A stretch of 33,967 nucleotides of DNA from Betaproteobacteria bacterium (GTDB taxonomy: Bacteria > Pseudomonadota > Gammaproteobacteria > Burkholderiales > SG8-39): the NCBI GenBank assembly GCA_005881595.1, contig VBBY01000028.1:1-33967 (forward strand), given 5' to 3'. The position numbers were made by a program, and so were the translations under genes. Each line of letters opens with the position of its first letter. Position 1 is the first letter of the stretch. A model generated the notes under the pieces. That model was given only the letters and a program-made list of their open reading frames with translations, was not told the DNA's origin and did not search any database. This document shows positions 26,407-33,930 of the stretch, piece after piece.

Positions 26407-27312
26407 ATGGTAGCAGCGCTTTCCTGGGCGGCGCGCCTCAAGGCTGGCCTTGCGCGCACGCGGGAGGTGCTCAACACCCCCGTCCCCGTGCTGCTCGCGC
26501 GCCGGCGCGTCGACGAGTCGCTCTACGAGGAGCTAGAGGCCGCGCTGCTGCAGGCCGACTGCGGCGTAGCTGCGACGCAGGCGATCGTTTCTTCTCTTCG
26601 AAGGAAAAAGCTAGAAGACGGGGAGGCCTTGAGACGCGCGCTGAAGGACGCGCTCGCGGAATTGCTCCTGCCGCTGGAAAGGAAACTGGAGATTACGGGA
26701 GCAAGGCCGTTTGTCATCATGCTCGCCGGCGTGAACGGCTCGGGAAAGACGACTTCGATCGGCAAGCTTGCGCACTGGCTGCAGTTGCAGGGGCGCAGCG
26801 TGCTGCTTGCTGCAGGCGACACGTTCCGCGCGGCGGCTCGCGAGCAGCTGGTGGCCTGGGGCGAGCGCAACGCCGTGCCGGTGATCGCGCAGCCATCCGG
26901 CGACCCGGGCGCGGTGCTGTTCGACGCGCTCGGCGCGGCCCGGGCGCGCGGTGCCGAGGTGGTCATCGCCGACACGGCCGGGCGGCTGCCGACGCAGCTG
27001 CACCTCATGGAGGAGATTCGCAAGGTGAAGCGCGTCGCCGCGAAAGCGCAGGCAGGCGCGCCGCACGAAGTGCTCCTCGTGCTCGACGCCAACACCGGGC
27101 AGAACGCGCTCGCGCAGGTCAAGGCCTTCGACGACGCGCTCGGCCTCACCGGCCTGGTCCTCACCAAGCTCGATGGCACCGCCAAGGGCGGGGTGGTTTG
27201 CGCGATCGCGAGGGAGCGGCCGGTTCCGCTTCTCTTCGTCGGCGTAGGCGAAGACATCGACGACCTGCGCCCGTTCGTCGCGCGCGATTTCGCCGAGGCG
27301 CTGGTTGGTTAG
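26407..27312 (+). CDS. ftsY: Signal recognition particle receptor FtsY
   Basis: 301 residues from the ATG at 26407; open sequence farther upstream is antisense to rsmD. NG domain: the N four-helix bundle (about 5-95), then the G domain with GVNGSGKTTS (108-117), DTFRAAAREQL, DTAGRLPTQ (189-197) and TKLDGTAKGGVV. It lacks the long acidic A domain of E. coli FtsY, like many betaproteobacterial forms. It docks SRP-ribosome complexes at the membrane. A TAGAAT box at 26391-26396 would place a start site at about 26403, implying a nearly leaderless message, but there is no matching -35 box. ftsE overlaps its end by 8 bases. Confidence 0.96.
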   Translation: MVAALSWAARLKAGLARTREVLNTPVPVLLARRRVDESLYEELEAALLQADCGVAATQAIVSSLRRKKLEDGEALRRALKDALAELLLPLERKLEITGARPFVIMLAGVNGSGKTTSIGKLAHWLQLQGRSVLLAAGDTFRAAAREQLVAWGERNAVPVIAQPSGDPGAVLFDALGAARARGAEVVIADTAGRLPTQLHLMEEIRKVKRVAAKAQAGAPHEVLLVLDANTGQNALAQVKAFDDALGLTGLVLTKLDGTAKGGVVCAIARERPVPLLFVGVGEDIDDLRPFVARDFAEALVG

Positions 27313-27955
27313 CTTTTCCTCGGTCGCGAAGCGCTATCCCGGCGGCCAGGAGGCGCTGAGGGACGTGAGCTTCGCGATCGGCGAAGGCGAGCTCGCCTTC
27401 ATCACCGGGCGCTCCGGCGCCGGCAAATCGACCCTCCTCAAGCTGATCCCGGCGATCGAGCGGCCGACTTCGGGCTCGGTGATCGTCAAAGGGCAGAATA
27501 TCAGCGCGCTCAAGCGCGCGGCGATCCCTTACCTGCGGCGCAACCTCGGCCTCGTGTTCCAGGACCAGAAGCTGCTTTACGACCGCAGCGTCTACGACAA
27601 CGCGATGCTGCCGCTCGCCTTCTCGGGTCACGCGCCGAAGGAAGCGGCGCGGCGCGTGCGCGCGGCGCTCGACAAGGTCGGGCTGCTTGGGCGCGAGCGC
27701 TCGAACCCGATCCAGCTCTCCGGTGGCGAGCAGCAACGCCTCGCGATCGCGCGCGCGGTGGTCAACCGGCCCTCGCTCCTGATCGCCGACGAGCCGACCG
27801 CCAATCTCGACGTCGAATCGGCCGCCCGCATCCTCGAGATCTTCGTCGCCTTCAACCAGGTCGGCGTCACCGTGCTCATCGCCACCCATGACCAGGGCCT
27901 GGTCGCACGCTACGGCAAGCGCGTCCTGCATCTCGAGAAGGGACGCGTCGCATGA
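27305..27955 (+). CDS. ftsE: Cell division ABC transporter ATPase FtsE
   Basis: 216 residues with a TTG start overlapping the ftsY stop by 8 bases. ABC ATPase: Walker A GRSGAGKST (35-43), Q-loop VFQDQKLL, signature LSGGEQQR (138-145), Walker B LLIADEPT (158-165), and switch His in IATHDQ. With FtsX it forms the complex that controls periplasmic murein hydrolases through EnvC-type activators at the septum. Length and the conserved ftsY-ftsE-ftsX order make the call safe. Confidence 0.97.
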   Translation: MVSFSSVAKRYPGGQEALRDVSFAIGEGELAFITGRSGAGKSTLLKLIPAIERPTSGSVIVKGQNISALKRAAIPYLRRNLGLVFQDQKLLYDRSVYDNAMLPLAFSGHAPKEAARRVRAALDKVGLLGRERSNPIQLSGGEQQRLAIARAVVNRPSLLIADEPTANLDVESAARILEIFVAFNQVGVTVLIATHDQGLVARYGKRVLHLEKGRVA

Positions 27956-28845
27956 GCGCCTGGTTGCGGCAGCATCGCCGCGCATTCGGCCAGGCGCTGC
28001 GCCGGCTTACGAAGGCGACGGGTCTTGCCAGCGCGCTGGTCATCGGCATCGCCCTGTCGCTTCCGGCCGGCGGCTATACGCTGCTCGAGAGCCTGCGGGC
28101 AATCGCGGCGCGCCTGACGCTCGAGCCGCAGATCTCGCTGTTCCTGCAGCCCGAGGCAAAGCGCGCCGAGGCCGAGGCGCTCGGCAAGAGGCTGCGCACC
28201 GACCCCCGCGTGGCGACCCTGCGCTTCGTGCCGCGCGAGGATGCGCTGCGCGAGCTGCAGGCAGTGGAGGGATTTCCCGAGCTCATCGCCGCCCTGGGGC
28301 GCAATCCCCTGCCCGATGCCTTCGTCCTCAGCACTAACGCGGCCGCAGTGGACGCGCTCGCCGCCGACCTGGCGAAACTCCCGGGAGTGGCCCACGTGCA
28401 AGCGGATGCTGTCTGGGCGCGCCGCCTCGCCGCCCTCGCCGGCATCGCACGGCTGGGGCTGTGGCTGCTCGCCGGCTTGCTCGGCACCGGCCTCGTGGCG
28501 GTGACGTTCAATACCATCCGGCTGCAGATCCTCACGCAGCGCGACGAGATCGAAGTGTCGAAGCTGATCGGCGCGACCGATGCGTTCATCCGCCGGCCGT
28601 TCTACTACCTGGGCTTGCTGCAGGGTCTGGCCGGCGGTGCCATGGCGGTCGGCATCGTTGCTGCCGCGCTCGCGCTGCTCAACCGCGAGGTGGGCGTGCT
28701 CGCCGAGTCCTACGGCTCGAGTTTTCGCTTTGCTTTTCTGCCGGCCGGCGATGCCCTGGCGGTGGTGCTGTTCGCCGGCCTGCTCGGCTGGCTCGGCGCC
28801 CACCTCTCGGTGAGCCGGCACCTGCGCGATATCGAGCCTGGGTGA
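27952..28845 (+). CDS. ftsX: Cell division ABC transporter permease FtsX
   Basis: 297 residues. Four transmembrane helices: one at about 25-46 (LASALVIGIALSLPAGGYTLL), then a periplasmic domain (about 50-155, QISLFLQPEAKRAEAEAL to VQADAVW), and three at about 163-185, 215-245 and 262-285. The cytoplasmic NTIRLQILTQRDEIEVSKLIGATDAFIRRPF segment is the FtsX signature that couples to FtsE. It overlaps ftsE by 4 nt (ATGA). About 100 bases separate it from rpoH. Confidence 0.96.
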   Translation: MSAWLRQHRRAFGQALRRLTKATGLASALVIGIALSLPAGGYTLLESLRAIAARLTLEPQISLFLQPEAKRAEAEALGKRLRTDPRVATLRFVPREDALRELQAVEGFPELIAALGRNPLPDAFVLSTNAAAVDALAADLAKLPGVAHVQADAVWARRLAALAGIARLGLWLLAGLLGTGLVAVTFNTIRLQILTQRDEIEVSKLIGATDAFIRRPFYYLGLLQGLAGGAMAVGIVAAALALLNREVGVLAESYGSSFRFAFLPAGDALAVVLFAGLLGWLGAHLSVSRHLRDIEPG

Positions 28846-28893
28846 GCGCATGCTTACGTTGAGACATCCTTAGACAGGGAACAAAGGAGAGGA

Positions 28894-28920
28894 TTAGCAC
28901 TCTAACGACAAGAGTGCTAA
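28894..28920 (+). promoter_or_regulatory. CIRCE element (HrcA operator) upstream of rpoH
   Basis: Perfect CIRCE: left arm TTAGCACTC (28894-28902), 9-base spacer, right arm GAGTGCTAA (28912-28920). This is an exact match to the known HrcA-binding consensus with the canonical 9-9-9 geometry. A -10-like TAAGAT lies at 28918-28923, and TTAGCA at 28894-28899 sits 18 bases before it. The operator would then cover the whole core promoter and block polymerase when HrcA is bound. The mapping of the promoter boxes is an inference; the operator itself is read directly. Confidence 0.93.
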
Positions 28921-28946
28921 GATAAACCGCCAAGGAGGTTTGAGGA

Positions 28947-29849
28947 ATGCAAACGCAAGCGACGACGATGCCCCTCGGTTCGATGCCCGTACCGATGCCC
29001 ACGGGCAGCCTCGAGGCCTACGTCCACACGGTCAACCGGTTTCCGATTCTCTCCGCGGAAGAAGAGCGCGCCCTTGCGCAGCGCTTCCGCGCGGAAGGCG
29101 ACCTGGAAGCCGCCCGCTCGCTGGTGCTGTCGCACCTGCGGCTGGTGGTGGCGGTCGCCCGCGGCTACCTCGGCTATGGGCTGCCGCACGCGGACCTGAT
29201 CCAGGAAGGCAATATCGGCTTGATGAAGGCCGTGAAGCGCTTCGACCCGGAGCGCGGCGTGCGCCTAGTGTCGTTCGCGATCCACTGGATCAAGGCCGAG
29301 ATCCACGAGTACATCCTGCGCAACTGGCGCATGGTCAAGCTCGCCACGACCAAGGCGCAAAGGAAGCTGTTCTTCAACCTGCGCTCGATGAAGAGCGGCC
29401 TCGCCCCGCTGACCCGCGCCGACATCAAGCGCGTGGCCGCCGAGCTGCGCGTCAAGCCCGAGGAAGTGGTCGAGATGGAGAAGCGGCTCTCCGGGCAGGA
29501 AATCGCGTTCGAAGCCGACGACGACGACGAGGACAGCTACGCCCCGGCGCAATACCTCGCCGACCACGAAAGCGAGCCGTACCGCGTGCTGGAGGCCGAA
29601 GAGTCGGCGCGCGTGCAGGCCGCCGGCCTGCAGAAGGCGCTCGCCAGCCTCGACCCGCGCAGCCGCCGCATCATCGAGGCGCGCTGGCTGAAGGAAAAAG
29701 ACGGCGCGACGCTGCACGAGCTCGCCGCCGAGTTCAACGTCTCGGCCGAGCGCATCCGCCAGATCGAGACCAAGGCGCTGGAGAAGATGCGCAAGGCGAT
29801 CGGCAATCCTGACGCGCTGCGCGCACTGCCAGCGCCGGCAGCCGCCTAA
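28947..29849 (+). CDS. rpoH: Heat-shock sigma factor RpoH (sigma-32)
   Basis: 300 residues. Region 2 contains HLRLVVAVARGYLGYGLPHADLIQEGNIGLMKAVKRFDPERG and FAIHWIKAEIHEYILRNWRMVK. The RpoH box QRKLFFNLR (138-146), which marks sigma-32, is intact. Region 4.2 ends with the helix-turn-helix LHELAAEFNVSAERIRQIETKALEKMR. An acidic DDDDED patch lies at about 191-196. An unusually strong ribosome site (AAGGAGG at 28932-28938) precedes the ATG by 8 bases, unlike the occluded site of E. coli rpoH. A CIRCE operator lies 26 bases upstream of the start. The gene follows ftsX as is common, and ends 7 bases from the convergent EAL gene stop. Confidence 0.98.
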   Translation: MQTQATTMPLGSMPVPMPTGSLEAYVHTVNRFPILSAEEERALAQRFRAEGDLEAARSLVLSHLRLVVAVARGYLGYGLPHADLIQEGNIGLMKAVKRFDPERGVRLVSFAIHWIKAEIHEYILRNWRMVKLATTKAQRKLFFNLRSMKSGLAPLTRADIKRVAAELRVKPEEVVEMEKRLSGQEIAFEADDDDEDSYAPAQYLADHESEPYRVLEAEESARVQAAGLQKALASLDPRSRRIIEARWLKEKDGATLHELAAEFNVSAERIRQIETKALEKMRKAIGNPDALRALPAPAAA

Positions 29850-29856
29850 GTCCTCC

Positions 29857-32800
29857 TTAAGAACTCTTTCGTAAGAGCTCGGCCAGGGCCGCCATCGGCA
29901 GCGGCTTGCTGAAAAGATAGCCCTGCATCTCGTCGCACCTCAGCAGGCGCAGAGAGTTCGCCTGCTCTTCGGTCTCGACGCCCTCGGCGACCACCTTGAG
30001 TTGGAGCGAGTGCGCCAGCGAGACGATCGTGGAGACGAGCGTCATCGCGTTGGCATCCTTGTGCATTGCGGTGATAAACGAGCGGTCGATCTTGAGCGAC
30101 TGCACCGGCAGCTTCGCCAAGTAGCCGAGCGAGGAATAGCCGGTGCCGAAGTCGTCGATTGCGATATTGACGCCGAGCGCGCGCACCGCATCGAGCTTCT
30201 GGATGTTCCCCTGGATGTCCTCCATGATCAGGCTCTCGGTGATCTCCAGGTCGATCGCTGTCGGCGCCAGCCCCTCCATGATCGCGTGTTCGATAACCTC
30301 GACGAAGATGCGCTGCCGCAACTGGATAGGCGACACGTTAACGGCCACGCGCGGCGCCTTGATGCCCTGTTCTACCCAGCCGCGGTGATCAAGCGATGCC
30401 CGCTTTAGCGCCCAGGAACCGACCTGCTGGATCAGACCGATCTCTTCCAGCAGCGGAATGAACTGCAGCGGCGGCACCAAGCCTAGTTCGGGGCTTTGCC
30501 AGCGGATCAGCGCCTCGACTCCGACGATGCTTCGACGCTCAAGATCCACTTTCGGCTGGTAGTGCAGGATGAACTCGTCTCTCTCCAGCGCCCGCCGCAG
30601 CTTGTTCTCGAGCGCCAGCTTCTCCGCGACGCGCTCGGTCATCTGCGCGGTATAGAACAAATAACGTTCGCCCTGCGATTTCGCCCTCTTAAGGGCAGAC
30701 TCCGCGTTCCGGAAGAGCGTATCGGGGTCCGAGCCGTCATTCGGAAAGAGCGCGATCCCCGCTTTGGCGTTAATCCTGAGTTCGGTGTCCCCGATGCGAA
30801 ACGGCGGGCCGAAAACCCTTTGCATCCGCCGCTCAAGGCGGCGCGCGACCTCGTCTTCGGACTGCGCGCCGCGACCTACGACAGCAAAGTGGTCCGCACT
30901 GATTCGAGCAATGCGCAACGAACCGTCATCGTTCTGCGACATCCGCTCTGCGATCTGCTTCAACAGCGCGTCGCCCTCTTGACGTCCAAGCGAGTCGTTG
31001 ATGGTCTTGAATCGCTCTACATCGAGAATAACGAGCGCGATCTTGCGCTCCTCTCGCGCCGCCGCCGTCAAGAGTTGCTCGACGCGCTCGTAGAACAGCG
31101 TGCGGTTTGCAAGGCCAGTGAGCTGGTCGTAGTAGGCAAGGTAGTCGAGCTTCTCCGCCTTATCGATGTGCTCGAGCGCGAACGATATATCGCCCGCGAG
31201 CTCGAGCAGCAGACGCATTTCCTCGTCGTCGAAAGTGCCCGTCTCTGCGGCATACAGGGCAAGCACGCCGATCGCTTCGCCACCGACCATCAGTGGGATG
31301 ATCGCCAGCGATTTGATTCCCCGCTCGTCGAGCTCCTTTCTCATCAGTCTCTGCGGATCATTCGTGACGTCGTTCGAGATCATGGGCTTCATGTCCCTGA
31401 CTGCCCGTCCCGCGAGACCGTGCCCGCCTGGCTTGTTTTCAATTACCGTCAGGGGCGCAGACTCGAAGAAGTCCCCCACCTCGCCGGCGGAGGCAACCGG
31501 CTTGACCAGCCCGGCCGCGCGATCCACGAATCCGACCCACGCCATGCGGAATTTTCCATGCTCGATGGCGATGCGGCAGGCTTCGTGGAACAGCTCCTGC
31601 CGATCGCGGATGCGCACGATCGCGGCGTTGATTCCGCTCAACACAGCGTGCACGCGCGTCAATCTCTCGACCCTCTCCTCTTTATCGATGTGATCGAGCG
31701 CGAATGCAATGTTGCCCGCCAGTTCGTTGAGGACCTTCATTTCCTCTTCGACGAAGAAGCCCGCCTCGTCCGAATGCAGGCCGAAGCTGCCCACTGCCCT
31801 TCCCGCCACGATCAAGGGCAGGATTGCAGCCGAGCGAACGCCCCGCTCATCGAGCCCCTTCTTGTGCCGGATACGCGGGTCGCTTTGCATGTCGCTCACG
31901 ACCAGCGCCCGCCTCTCTCTCACCGCTACGGCGCTGATGCCATGGCCTTCGGGCGCTGCATCGCGCAGCGAAAGACCGCTCTCGATCATCTTCAGAAACC
32001 CTTCGTCAGCCCCCGCCGAGGCGACCGGCTTCAGGCTCATCTCTTTCTCATCCACGATGCACAGCCAGGCAAATCGAAGACCTCCCGTATCGACCGCAAT
32101 GCGACAGGCCTCCTGGAACAGCTCGCGGCGATCCCGGACGCGCGCGATGACCCCGTTAATACCACTGAGCATCGCGTTCACGCGGGTTAGCCGCCTCAGC
32201 CGCTCCTCCTTCTGCATGTGCTCAAGGGCGAACGCAATGTCGCCCGCCAGCTCGCGCAGCAGCTTCATCTCTTCTTCATCGAAGAATCCGACTTCGCCGG
32301 CGTACAGCGCCAGTACACCCACCGACTCCTCCGCGATCATGAGCGGAAGCATGATCAGAGAGCGGAACCCGCGCTCGAGAGCTTCCTTCCTCAACAGGAT
32401 GCGCGGATCCTGCGTCATATCGTCGACGGTGATCGCCGTGCGTTCCCTCACCGCCTGACCCGCCAAGCCGCGCCCGTGGGCTTCGGTGTCGACCAGCCCC
32501 AACGGCATCAGGTGGATGTACTCCGCATCGGTTCCATGCCAGGCGACAGGCTTCACTAACATCGCTTCGCGGTCCACGAGCCCGATCCAGGCCATGCGGA
32601 ATTTCCCGGCCTCGACGGCGAGCCCGCAGGCTTCCCTCAACAACTCCTCCCGATCTCGTGCGCGGACGATGAGCGCGTTGATGCCGCTCAGCACGGCGTA
32701 CACCCGGTTGAGGCGGCGTATTTTCTCTTCCGCCTCCTTGCGATTGGTGATGTCGCGAATGAAACCCGTGAACAACGGTGCCGCTCCTGTATTGGTCACC

Positions 32801-33930
32801 GTGATTGCCAGCTCGATCGGAAACTCCGTCCCGTCGGCTCGCATGGCTTGCAGTTCGAGCCGCTTGCCCAGGATGGGACCCTCGCCCGTCGTCAGGTAAT
32901 GCGCAAAGCCGCGGTTATGCGCCTCGCGCAGACGGGGCGGGATTATTAGCTCCGCCATGACTTTGCCGAGCGCTTGCTGGCGTGAGATGCCAAAGCTCGC
33001 TTCCGCCGCCGGGTTGAACTCTACGATGTTGCCCTGACGGTCGATCGTTATCAGCGCATCGAGCGAGGATTCGAGGACAGCGCCTTTGAGGCTCTCGCTC
33101 TCGCGCAATTCCTCCTCGGCCCGCTTCTGCTCGGTCACGTCCTGCAACGTGCTGAACCAGCGTTCCGGTTCGGCCGTACCTGATTGCCCTGGCATCGGCT
33201 CGACGACCTGCCGGATATGCATCCATGCGCCGTCGGGCCGCTGCAGCCGGAATTCGATGTCGACACGGGCTCCCTTGACGCCCGCTTCGATGCTCGCGCT
33301 GCGAAATCGCTGTCGATCGTCTGGATGGAGCAGGTTGAGCCACTCACGCGTGCTGCGCGGCACTCGCGAGGGCTCGACGCCGATCAACGAAGGCAGCGTC
33401 TCCGACCAGCTCTCAAAGACGCCGTCGGCGCCGGTAATCACATGGCCGAGCTTTGCCATGACTTGCGCGCGGCGCAGGCCCGCCTCGCGTTCACGCAGGC
33501 GCTCGCGCGCAACGTCGAGCTCGGCTTCAGCGCGCCGCCGCTCGCCGCGCTCCTTTGCCTCGTCGAGCGCGCGGGTGACTGCGACGGGGAGGCGCACGAG
33601 ATTGCCCTTGAGCACATAGTCGGTGGCGCCGCCCTTCAGCGCCCGGATCGCGTACTCTTCGCCGATCGTGCCGGAGACGAAGACGAACGGGGTGTCCGGC
33701 GAGATTTCCTGGGCGAGCGCGAGCGCCTCCATGCCATCGAAGCCCGGCATCGAAAAATCCGAAAGGATCACGTGAGGCGTGAACTCGCGCAGCGCGGCCA
33801 CAAAGTCGTCGGGACGATCGACGATCCGAGGCGTCACGCGCAGTCCCGCACGCTTCAGCTCGCGGATCTCGAGCTCGGCGTCTGCGGCGACGTCCTCCGC
33901 GATCAGAACCCGGATTGTCGGCGCGATCAT
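29857..33930 (-). CDS. Receiver-PAS-PAS-(GAF)x3-GGDEF(degenerate)-EAL signalling protein
   Basis: 1357 residues, soluble, no transmembrane helix. The receiver domain (6-120) has acid pocket Glu12/Asp13, phospho-acceptor Asp58 (LSDFSMPG), Ser86 and Lys108 (YVLKGN). A coiled coil (120-155) and two PAS domains follow: about 155-270, ending TLQDVTEQKRAEEEL, and about 280-400, ending FIRDITNRKEAEEK. Three tandem GAF units are at 407-580, 581-756 and 757-928. The GGDEF domain (930-1095) has SADHF (1011-1015) where GGDEF should be, so no cyclase activity is expected. The EAL domain (1105-1350) has Gln1125, EAL 1139-1141, Asn1198, Glu1229, DDFGTGYSS from 1259, Lys1280 and Glu1316, so c-di-GMP phosphodiesterase activity is predicted. 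Ligands are unknown. The ribosome site is weak, and the frame stays open to the window edge. Confidence 0.92.
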   Translation of the reverse strand: MIAPTIRVLIAEDVAADAELEIRELKRAGLRVTPRIVDRPDDFVAALREFTPHVILSDFSMPGFDGMEALALAQEISPDTPFVFVSGTIGEEYAIRALKGGATDYVLKGNLVRLPVAVTRALDEAKERGERRRAEAELDVARERLREREAGLRRAQVMAKLGHVITGADGVFESWSETLPSLIGVEPSRVPRSTREWLNLLHPDDRQRFRSASIEAGVKGARVDIEFRLQRPDGAWMHIRQVVEPMPGQSGTAEPERWFSTLQDVTEQKRAEEELRESESLKGAVLESSLDALITIDRQGNIVEFNPAAEASFGISRQQALGKVMAELIIPPRLREAHNRGFAHYLTTGEGPILGKRLELQAMRADGTEFPIELAITVTNTGAAPLFTGFIRDITNRKEAEEKIRRLNRVYAVLSGINALIVRARDREELLREACGLAVEAGKFRMAWIGLVDREAMLVKPVAWHGTDAEYIHLMPLGLVDTEAHGRGLAGQAVRERTAITVDDMTQDPRILLRKEALERGFRSLIMLPLMIAEESVGVLALYAGEVGFFDEEEMKLLRELAGDIAFALEHMQKEERLRRLTRVNAMLSGINGVIARVRDRRELFQEACRIAVDTGGLRFAWLCIVDEKEMSLKPVASAGADEGFLKMIESGLSLRDAAPEGHGISAVAVRERRALVVSDMQSDPRIRHKKGLDERGVRSAAILPLIVAGRAVGSFGLHSDEAGFFVEEEMKVLNELAGNIAFALDHIDKEERVERLTRVHAVLSGINAAIVRIRDRQELFHEACRIAIEHGKFRMAWVGFVDRAAGLVKPVASAGEVGDFFESAPLTVIENKPGGHGLAGRAVRDMKPMISNDVTNDPQRLMRKELDERGIKSLAIIPLMVGGEAIGVLALYAAETGTFDDEEMRLLLELAGDISFALEHIDKAEKLDYLAYYDQLTGLANRTLFYERVEQLLTAAAREERKIALVILDVERFKTINDSLGRQEGDALLKQIAERMSQNDDGSLRIARISADHFAVVGRGAQSEDEVARRLERRMQRVFGPPFRIGDTELRINAKAGIALFPNDGSDPDTLFRNAESALKRAKSQGERYLFYTAQMTERVAEKLALENKLRRALERDEFILHYQPKVDLERRSIVGVEALIRWQSPELGLVPPLQFIPLLEEIGLIQQVGSWALKRASLDHRGWVEQGIKAPRVAVNVSPIQLRQRIFVEVIEHAIMEGLAPTAIDLEITESLIMEDIQGNIQKLDAVRALGVNIAIDDFGTGYSSLGYLAKLPVQSLKIDRSFITAMHKDANAMTLVSTIVSLAHSLQLKVVAEGVETEEQANSLRLLRCDEMQGYLFSKPLPMAALAELLRKSS
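31147..32712 (-). repeat. Three tandem GAF-domain repeats of about 174 codons
   Basis: Units at about 32712-32191, 32190-31663 and 31662-31147 each open with LxRVxAxLSGIN and RxRDRxEL(F/L)xEAC, then KPVAxxG, HGxxxxAVR, DPRxxxxKExxERGxxS and FxxEEMKxLxELAGxIAFAL. The last part is a helix ending in EERxxRL, so the repeat includes the linker helix. DNA similarity is visible too: CCATGCGGAATTT recurs near 31543 and 32593. The pattern indicates internal duplication inside one gene. Confidence 0.85.

Follow-up and report, generated by a model that had tools for sequence, protein, structure and literature searches.

Textbooks usually present heat-shock control as two separate plans. One, typified by E. 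coli, pairs sigma-32 with an RNA thermosensor; the other, typified by Bacillus, pairs HrcA with its operator CIRCE. In the window (the whole 33,967-nucleotide stretch of Betaproteobacteria bacterium DNA that was analysed), a predicted HrcA operator lies upstream of rpoH, the gene of sigma-32. This locus raises the question of whether HrcA controls sigma-32 synthesis and, if so, through which promoter.

CIRCE and promoter elements upstream of rpoH

The features of the locus are as follows.

27305-27955: ftsE, upstream of ftsX
27952-28845, plus strand: ftsX, the gene upstream of rpoH, bounding the 101-nt ftsX-rpoH interval that holds CIRCE
28878-28884, plus strand: sigma-E (RpoE) type -35, GGAACAA, 5/7 of GGAACTT, at -16 from CIRCE, the peak position in rpoH loci
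28894-28920, plus strand: CIRCE, predicted HrcA operator, exact TTAGCACTC-TAACGACAA-GAGTGCTAA, kept before rpoH in 79/80 relatives
28894-28899, plus strand: candidate sigma-70 -35, TTAGCA, within the CIRCE left arm, 4/6 of TTGACA
28901-28905, plus strand: sigma-E type -10, TCTAA, in which TC is CIRCE bases 8-9 and TAA is N9 bases 1-3
28918-28923, plus strand: candidate sigma-70 -10, TAAGAT, made of the last three CIRCE bases and GAT
28932-28938, plus strand: Shine-Dalgarno sequence AAGGAGG, 8 nt before the rpoH start codon
28947-29849, plus strand: rpoH (sigma-32), 300 aa, TIGR02392

The profile search identified the rpoH product with 404.9 bits against the TIGR02392 cut-off of 323.1. A 9-9-9 pattern search found the inverted repeat TTAGCACTC-N9-GAGTGCTAA with no mismatch in either arm. 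It was the sole CIRCE in the window with up to three mismatches allowed, and 100 shuffles of the window gave no match at this threshold. The first-pass annotation had described an exact 9-9-9 operator 26 bases before the rpoH start, and the search confirmed both the match and the distance (26 nt from the end of CIRCE to the ATG at 28947). That annotation gave its span as 28894-28923; the start is correct, and the operator itself ends at 28920, the additional GAT being the bases that complete TAAGAT.

The annotation had also placed CIRCE over the -35 to -10 region of the rpoH promoter. The overlap was found, but the implied pair, TTAGCA-N18-TAAGAT, is weak in its -35, and a candidate sigma-E promoter had been missed. 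The pair matches TTGACA-N16-18-TATAAT at 8 of 12 positions, and a simple sigma-70 scan of 28400-29100 returned no match, the pair included. Its predicted start would leave an rpoH leader of only ~17 nt. The sigma-E match, GGAACAA-N16-TCTAA, fits the ECF02/RpoE pattern GGAACTT-N16/17-TCNNA in the -10 and the spacing, with 5/7 in the -35; a stricter pattern, requiring GGAAC to be followed by T or C, does not match the window itself. CIRCE apparently overlaps two rpoH promoters, not one. Because the sigma-70 -35 matches at only 4/6 positions and the leader would be so short, the sigma-70 promoter would be the weaker part of the mechanism proposed below.

On the minus strand, a 1357-aa protein is encoded at 29857-33930 and ends 8 nt after rpoH. 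By eye, it has a response-regulator, PAS, repeated GAF, GGDEF and EAL layout.

Conservation of the operator and of its flanking elements

The first comparison set consisted of the 80 closest rpoH loci from named genomes, nearly all of which have betaproteobacterial titles. A scan of related rpoH upstream regions for CIRCE, which the first-pass annotation had proposed, gave a match with two mismatches or fewer in 79 of the 80. The lone exception, L070 (a Nitrosospira MAG), has kept its groESL CIRCE (L105) and reads as a case of local operator loss. Because the rpoH flanks are otherwise unalignable among relatives, the comparison indicates that the operator is under selection.

In many of these loci, GGAACTT or a similar sequence begins 16 nt upstream of CIRCE; A then occupies position 3 of N9. 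The interleaved layout reads GGAACTT-N16-TCNNA, which is an RpoE promoter whose TC is supplied by CIRCE bases 8-9. A was present at N9 position 3 in 38/45 loci with the -35 vs 6/35 without it (p 1e-9, which ignores kinship and therefore overstates the significance). When N9 was shuffled among loci, the count of 40 fell to 22 (sd 2.5; none of 5000 shuffles exceeded 33). In L041, L055 and L072 the -35 is shifted by two, and TC recurs two bases further in. The close relatives L004-L009 have kept GAAC with TCNNA. The interleaved form is absent from about half of the betaproteobacterial loci. Some of the loci without it have a sigma-E promoter just upstream of CIRCE, as in Burkholderiaceae and Alcaligenaceae relatives, where the -10 is not overlapped; others have no recognisable one.

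Six Oxalobacteraceae-type loci (L036, L047, L054, L059, L060 and L065) lack a sigma-E match and share ATAGNNTTTTTACTAT-like repeats ~20-40 nt upstream of CIRCE; these loci may use a different promoter or regulator.

NAT directly follows CIRCE, giving TAANAT, in 72/80 rpoH loci vs 2/22 groESL CIRCEs. The latter comprised 22 oriented sites, 21 from genomes of the 80-locus set and one from the window's own genome; TTGAAA-type sigma-32 promoters preceded 19 of the 22, and the sigma-E pattern preceded none. NAT was rejected as part of HrcA recognition, since groESL CIRCEs mostly have none. It is also unlikely to be a translation-start feature: L059 and L060 keep it beside a CIRCE that precedes the rpoH match by more than 250 nt. 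TAANAT, begun by the CIRCE right arm, is likely a sigma-70 -10. Across relatives, the sigma-E promoter is clearer than the sigma-70 promoter at the rpoH CIRCE.

The next search covered 369 genomes drawn from across the GTDB class Gammaproteobacteria, which includes the betaproteobacteria. A loose right-arm pattern also hit its control, and the full operator followed by NAT was used instead. CIRCE-NAT was found in 153/369 genomes, and the reversed-pattern control gave none. We fetched 130 loci, which yielded 132 oriented sites: 118 before rpoH, 5 before groES, 2 before hrcA and 7 elsewhere. This set was selected on NAT and hence adds nothing new on NAT, but the upstream region and N9 were not selected on. 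A -35 of the form [GA]AAC starts at exactly -16 from CIRCE in 69/118 rpoH loci, against 0-8 at other positions. A stood at N9 position 3 in 72/80 loci with a -35 vs 13/38 without (p 9e-10 over the 118 rpoH loci, again overstated as kinship is ignored), and the -35/-10 spacing was 16 nt in 65/80 and 17 nt in 8.

hrcA was present in 144/153 CIRCE-NAT genomes vs 124/216 others (Fisher 1.8e-16, a value that overstates because kinship is ignored). Seven of the nine CIRCE-NAT genomes without hrcA are less than 90% complete. In a sample of the phylum, class members included, only 7/150 genomes had CIRCE-NAT. An rpoH-like gene is preceded by it in two genomes that do not belong to the class.

At three loci (L217, L230 and L238), NAT flanks CIRCE both ways, as ATN-TTAGCACTC...GAGTGCTAA-NAT, so that a candidate -10 points outward on both strands; one of the two sides faces rpoH. 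In L249, the full rpoH operator is immediately preceded by a further CIRCE half, GAGTGCTAAAAT, perhaps a duplicated operator.

Proposed HrcA control of rpoH and alternative explanations

The host genome (3.8 Mb, 257 contigs, 97% complete) was searched for the other parts of such a circuit. The profile search found hrcA (PF01628, 2.7e-66, 224.4 bits), the presence of which the first-pass annotation had wanted confirmed, on a contig other than that of rpoH; RpoE was also found (TIGR02939, 321.8 bits vs a cut-off of 236.15). The genome has two CIRCEs with three mismatches or fewer, at rpoH and at groESL; this genome-wide search showed none at hrcA itself. The groESL operator (L002) is exact and lies 80 nt before groES, and groESL also has a sigma-32-type promoter. 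On the hrcA contig, grpE is preceded by a sigma-32-type promoter, CTTGAAA...CCCCAAT, and further downstream, beyond the start of grpE, is another, CTTGAAA-N13-CCCCATAT, at the place expected for dnaK. Neither promoter of the grpE locus has a CIRCE. Because the operator occurs only at rpoH and groESL, the DnaK side of the heat-shock response is predicted, from operator positions, to be open to HrcA only via rpoH.

These findings strongly suggest that the rpoH CIRCE is a working HrcA operator inside the rpoH promoter region. We consider it likely, too, that HrcA bound there would block both rpoH promoters and so gate the sigma-32 regulon. In the unstressed cell, HrcA bound at 28894-28920 would mask the sigma-E -10 together with the predicted start (~28911), as well as the candidate sigma-70 TTAGCA and TAAGAT, and rpoH expression would be low. 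HrcA would be released when GroEL is occupied by misfolded protein, or by the effect of heat on HrcA itself, and rpoH would then be transcribed by sigma-70 polymerase. Envelope stress would free RpoE, and RpoE polymerase would transcribe rpoH more strongly once HrcA is off. Sigma-32 would in turn switch on grpE and dnaK, neither of which carries a CIRCE in this genome, as well as groESL, through its sigma-32 promoter and subject to its own CIRCE. New GroEL would restore HrcA, and rpoH and groESL would be shut together. The overall circuit would be a feed-forward layout closed by negative feedback. The cascade from HrcA to sigma-32 put forward in the first-pass annotation is still the best reading, given the presence of hrcA, the conservation of the site in the closest loci and widely in the class, and the promoter elements that it covers.

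HrcA might instead act on rpoH through the sigma-70 promoter only, the sigma-E match of the window being a decayed relic without envelope-stress input. The imperfect -35, GGAACAA, would fit this reading, as would the lack of interleaving in about half of the betaproteobacterial loci and the retention of NAT in nearly all rpoH loci whatever their sigma-E arrangement. However, the window retains both TCTAA and the 16-nt spacing, L004-L009 maintain the paired elements, and the genome encodes RpoE; we regard a sigma-70-only route as rather unlikely.

In E. coli, an RNA thermosensor located in the leader and the first part of the coding region governs rpoH. A similar thermosensor could be the chief control here, with CIRCE secondary; the rpoH leader is short, and the Shine-Dalgarno sequence is partly paired in predicted folds. 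This pairing does not bear out the first-pass description of the ribosome site as exposed. Leader folding nevertheless resembled that of shuffled sequence (z-scores of 0.61 and 0.38), no structure emerged when 19 relatives were folded to a consensus, and there was no Rfam match; thus no stable or conserved structure of the rpoH or ROSE type masking the ribosome-binding site was found by these three approaches. The earlier preference for transcription over a thermosensor stands because conserved or significant structure is absent, not because the ribosome-binding site is shown to be exposed. A thermosensor as chief control seems quite improbable.

CIRCE stem-loop effects on mRNA are known for groESL leaders, and the rpoH CIRCE is likewise able to form a stem-loop that could alter stability or translation at the 5' end of the transcript. 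For this to be its main action is very improbable: starts from the interleaved promoters are predicted inside or after CIRCE, which would give a transcript without the full stem, and the leader structure is neither significant nor conserved. Although HrcA binding at the site is a prediction, a vestige without a present role is hardly credible for an operator that has two perfect arms amid unalignable flanks and whose presence tracks hrcA.

Relation to known systems

CIRCE before rpoH is already known as a prediction: Table 8 of a Geobacter sulfurreducens study lists one at -51 (PMC545781). The operator and its position before rpoH are the same as here, in a different phylum. The table is a one-species site list and does not describe promoter overlap. 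The first-pass annotation had mentioned comparative-genomic reports of HrcA sites before rpoH in some betaproteobacteria; the Geobacter entry bears this out only in part, and the same paper cites a 2003 study on beta-, gamma- and epsilonproteobacteria (Permina and Gelfand 2003). The literature searched, outside which most subscription journals lie, contained no report of the shared-base RpoE/HrcA layout at rpoH or of how widely it occurs.

The rpoH site resembles the HrcA/CIRCE system of Bacillus groESL in its 9-9-9 operator, its repressor gene and the adjacent promoter, but its target is a sigma factor gene. It also differs from the groESL CIRCE of the host and related genomes, which follows a sigma-32 promoter and has neither NAT nor sigma-E elements.

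E. coli K-12 has TGAACTT-N16-TCTGA in its ftsX-rpoH interval, with the same gene order as in the window. Its sigma-E-dependent rpoH promoter P3 resembles the sigma-E match of the window but has no CIRCE (best match, 8 mismatches), and the profile search of the E. coli control genome found no HrcA. Across much of the class, the rpoH loci may carry an ancient composite element in which an HrcA operator and an RpoE promoter share bases and RpoE fires only with HrcA off, E. coli with its RpoE promoter and no CIRCE being a derived exception; we give this broader reading about an even chance.

One stretch of DNA seems to join the HrcA and envelope-stress RpoE signals at the master heat-shock gene. 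Here the two textbook plans would be joined in series, by a link that occurs widely in the class to which E. coli belongs. Sharing bases between operator and RpoE promoter would make a simple logic gate, which is directly testable. If the composite element is real, envelope stress and cytoplasmic protein-folding stress would be joined at rpoH by a built-in gate, and the layout suggests that E. coli may be the one that departs from the plan of its relatives.

RpoE-type control of rpoH has been described in two related genera. In vitro, SigE of Bordetella bronchiseptica drives transcription from the rpoH (fam) promoter (PMC3490749), in a report that leaves HrcA and CIRCE unmentioned, and B. pseudomallei has a heat-inducible rpoH promoter under RpoE control (PMC5994319). 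In L071 (Achromobacter), a relative, CIRCE directly follows the sigma-E promoter, and the -10 is not overlapped. Judging from the Burkholderiaceae and Alcaligenaceae relatives, the known Bordetella and Burkholderia pseudomallei promoters probably also face a CIRCE.
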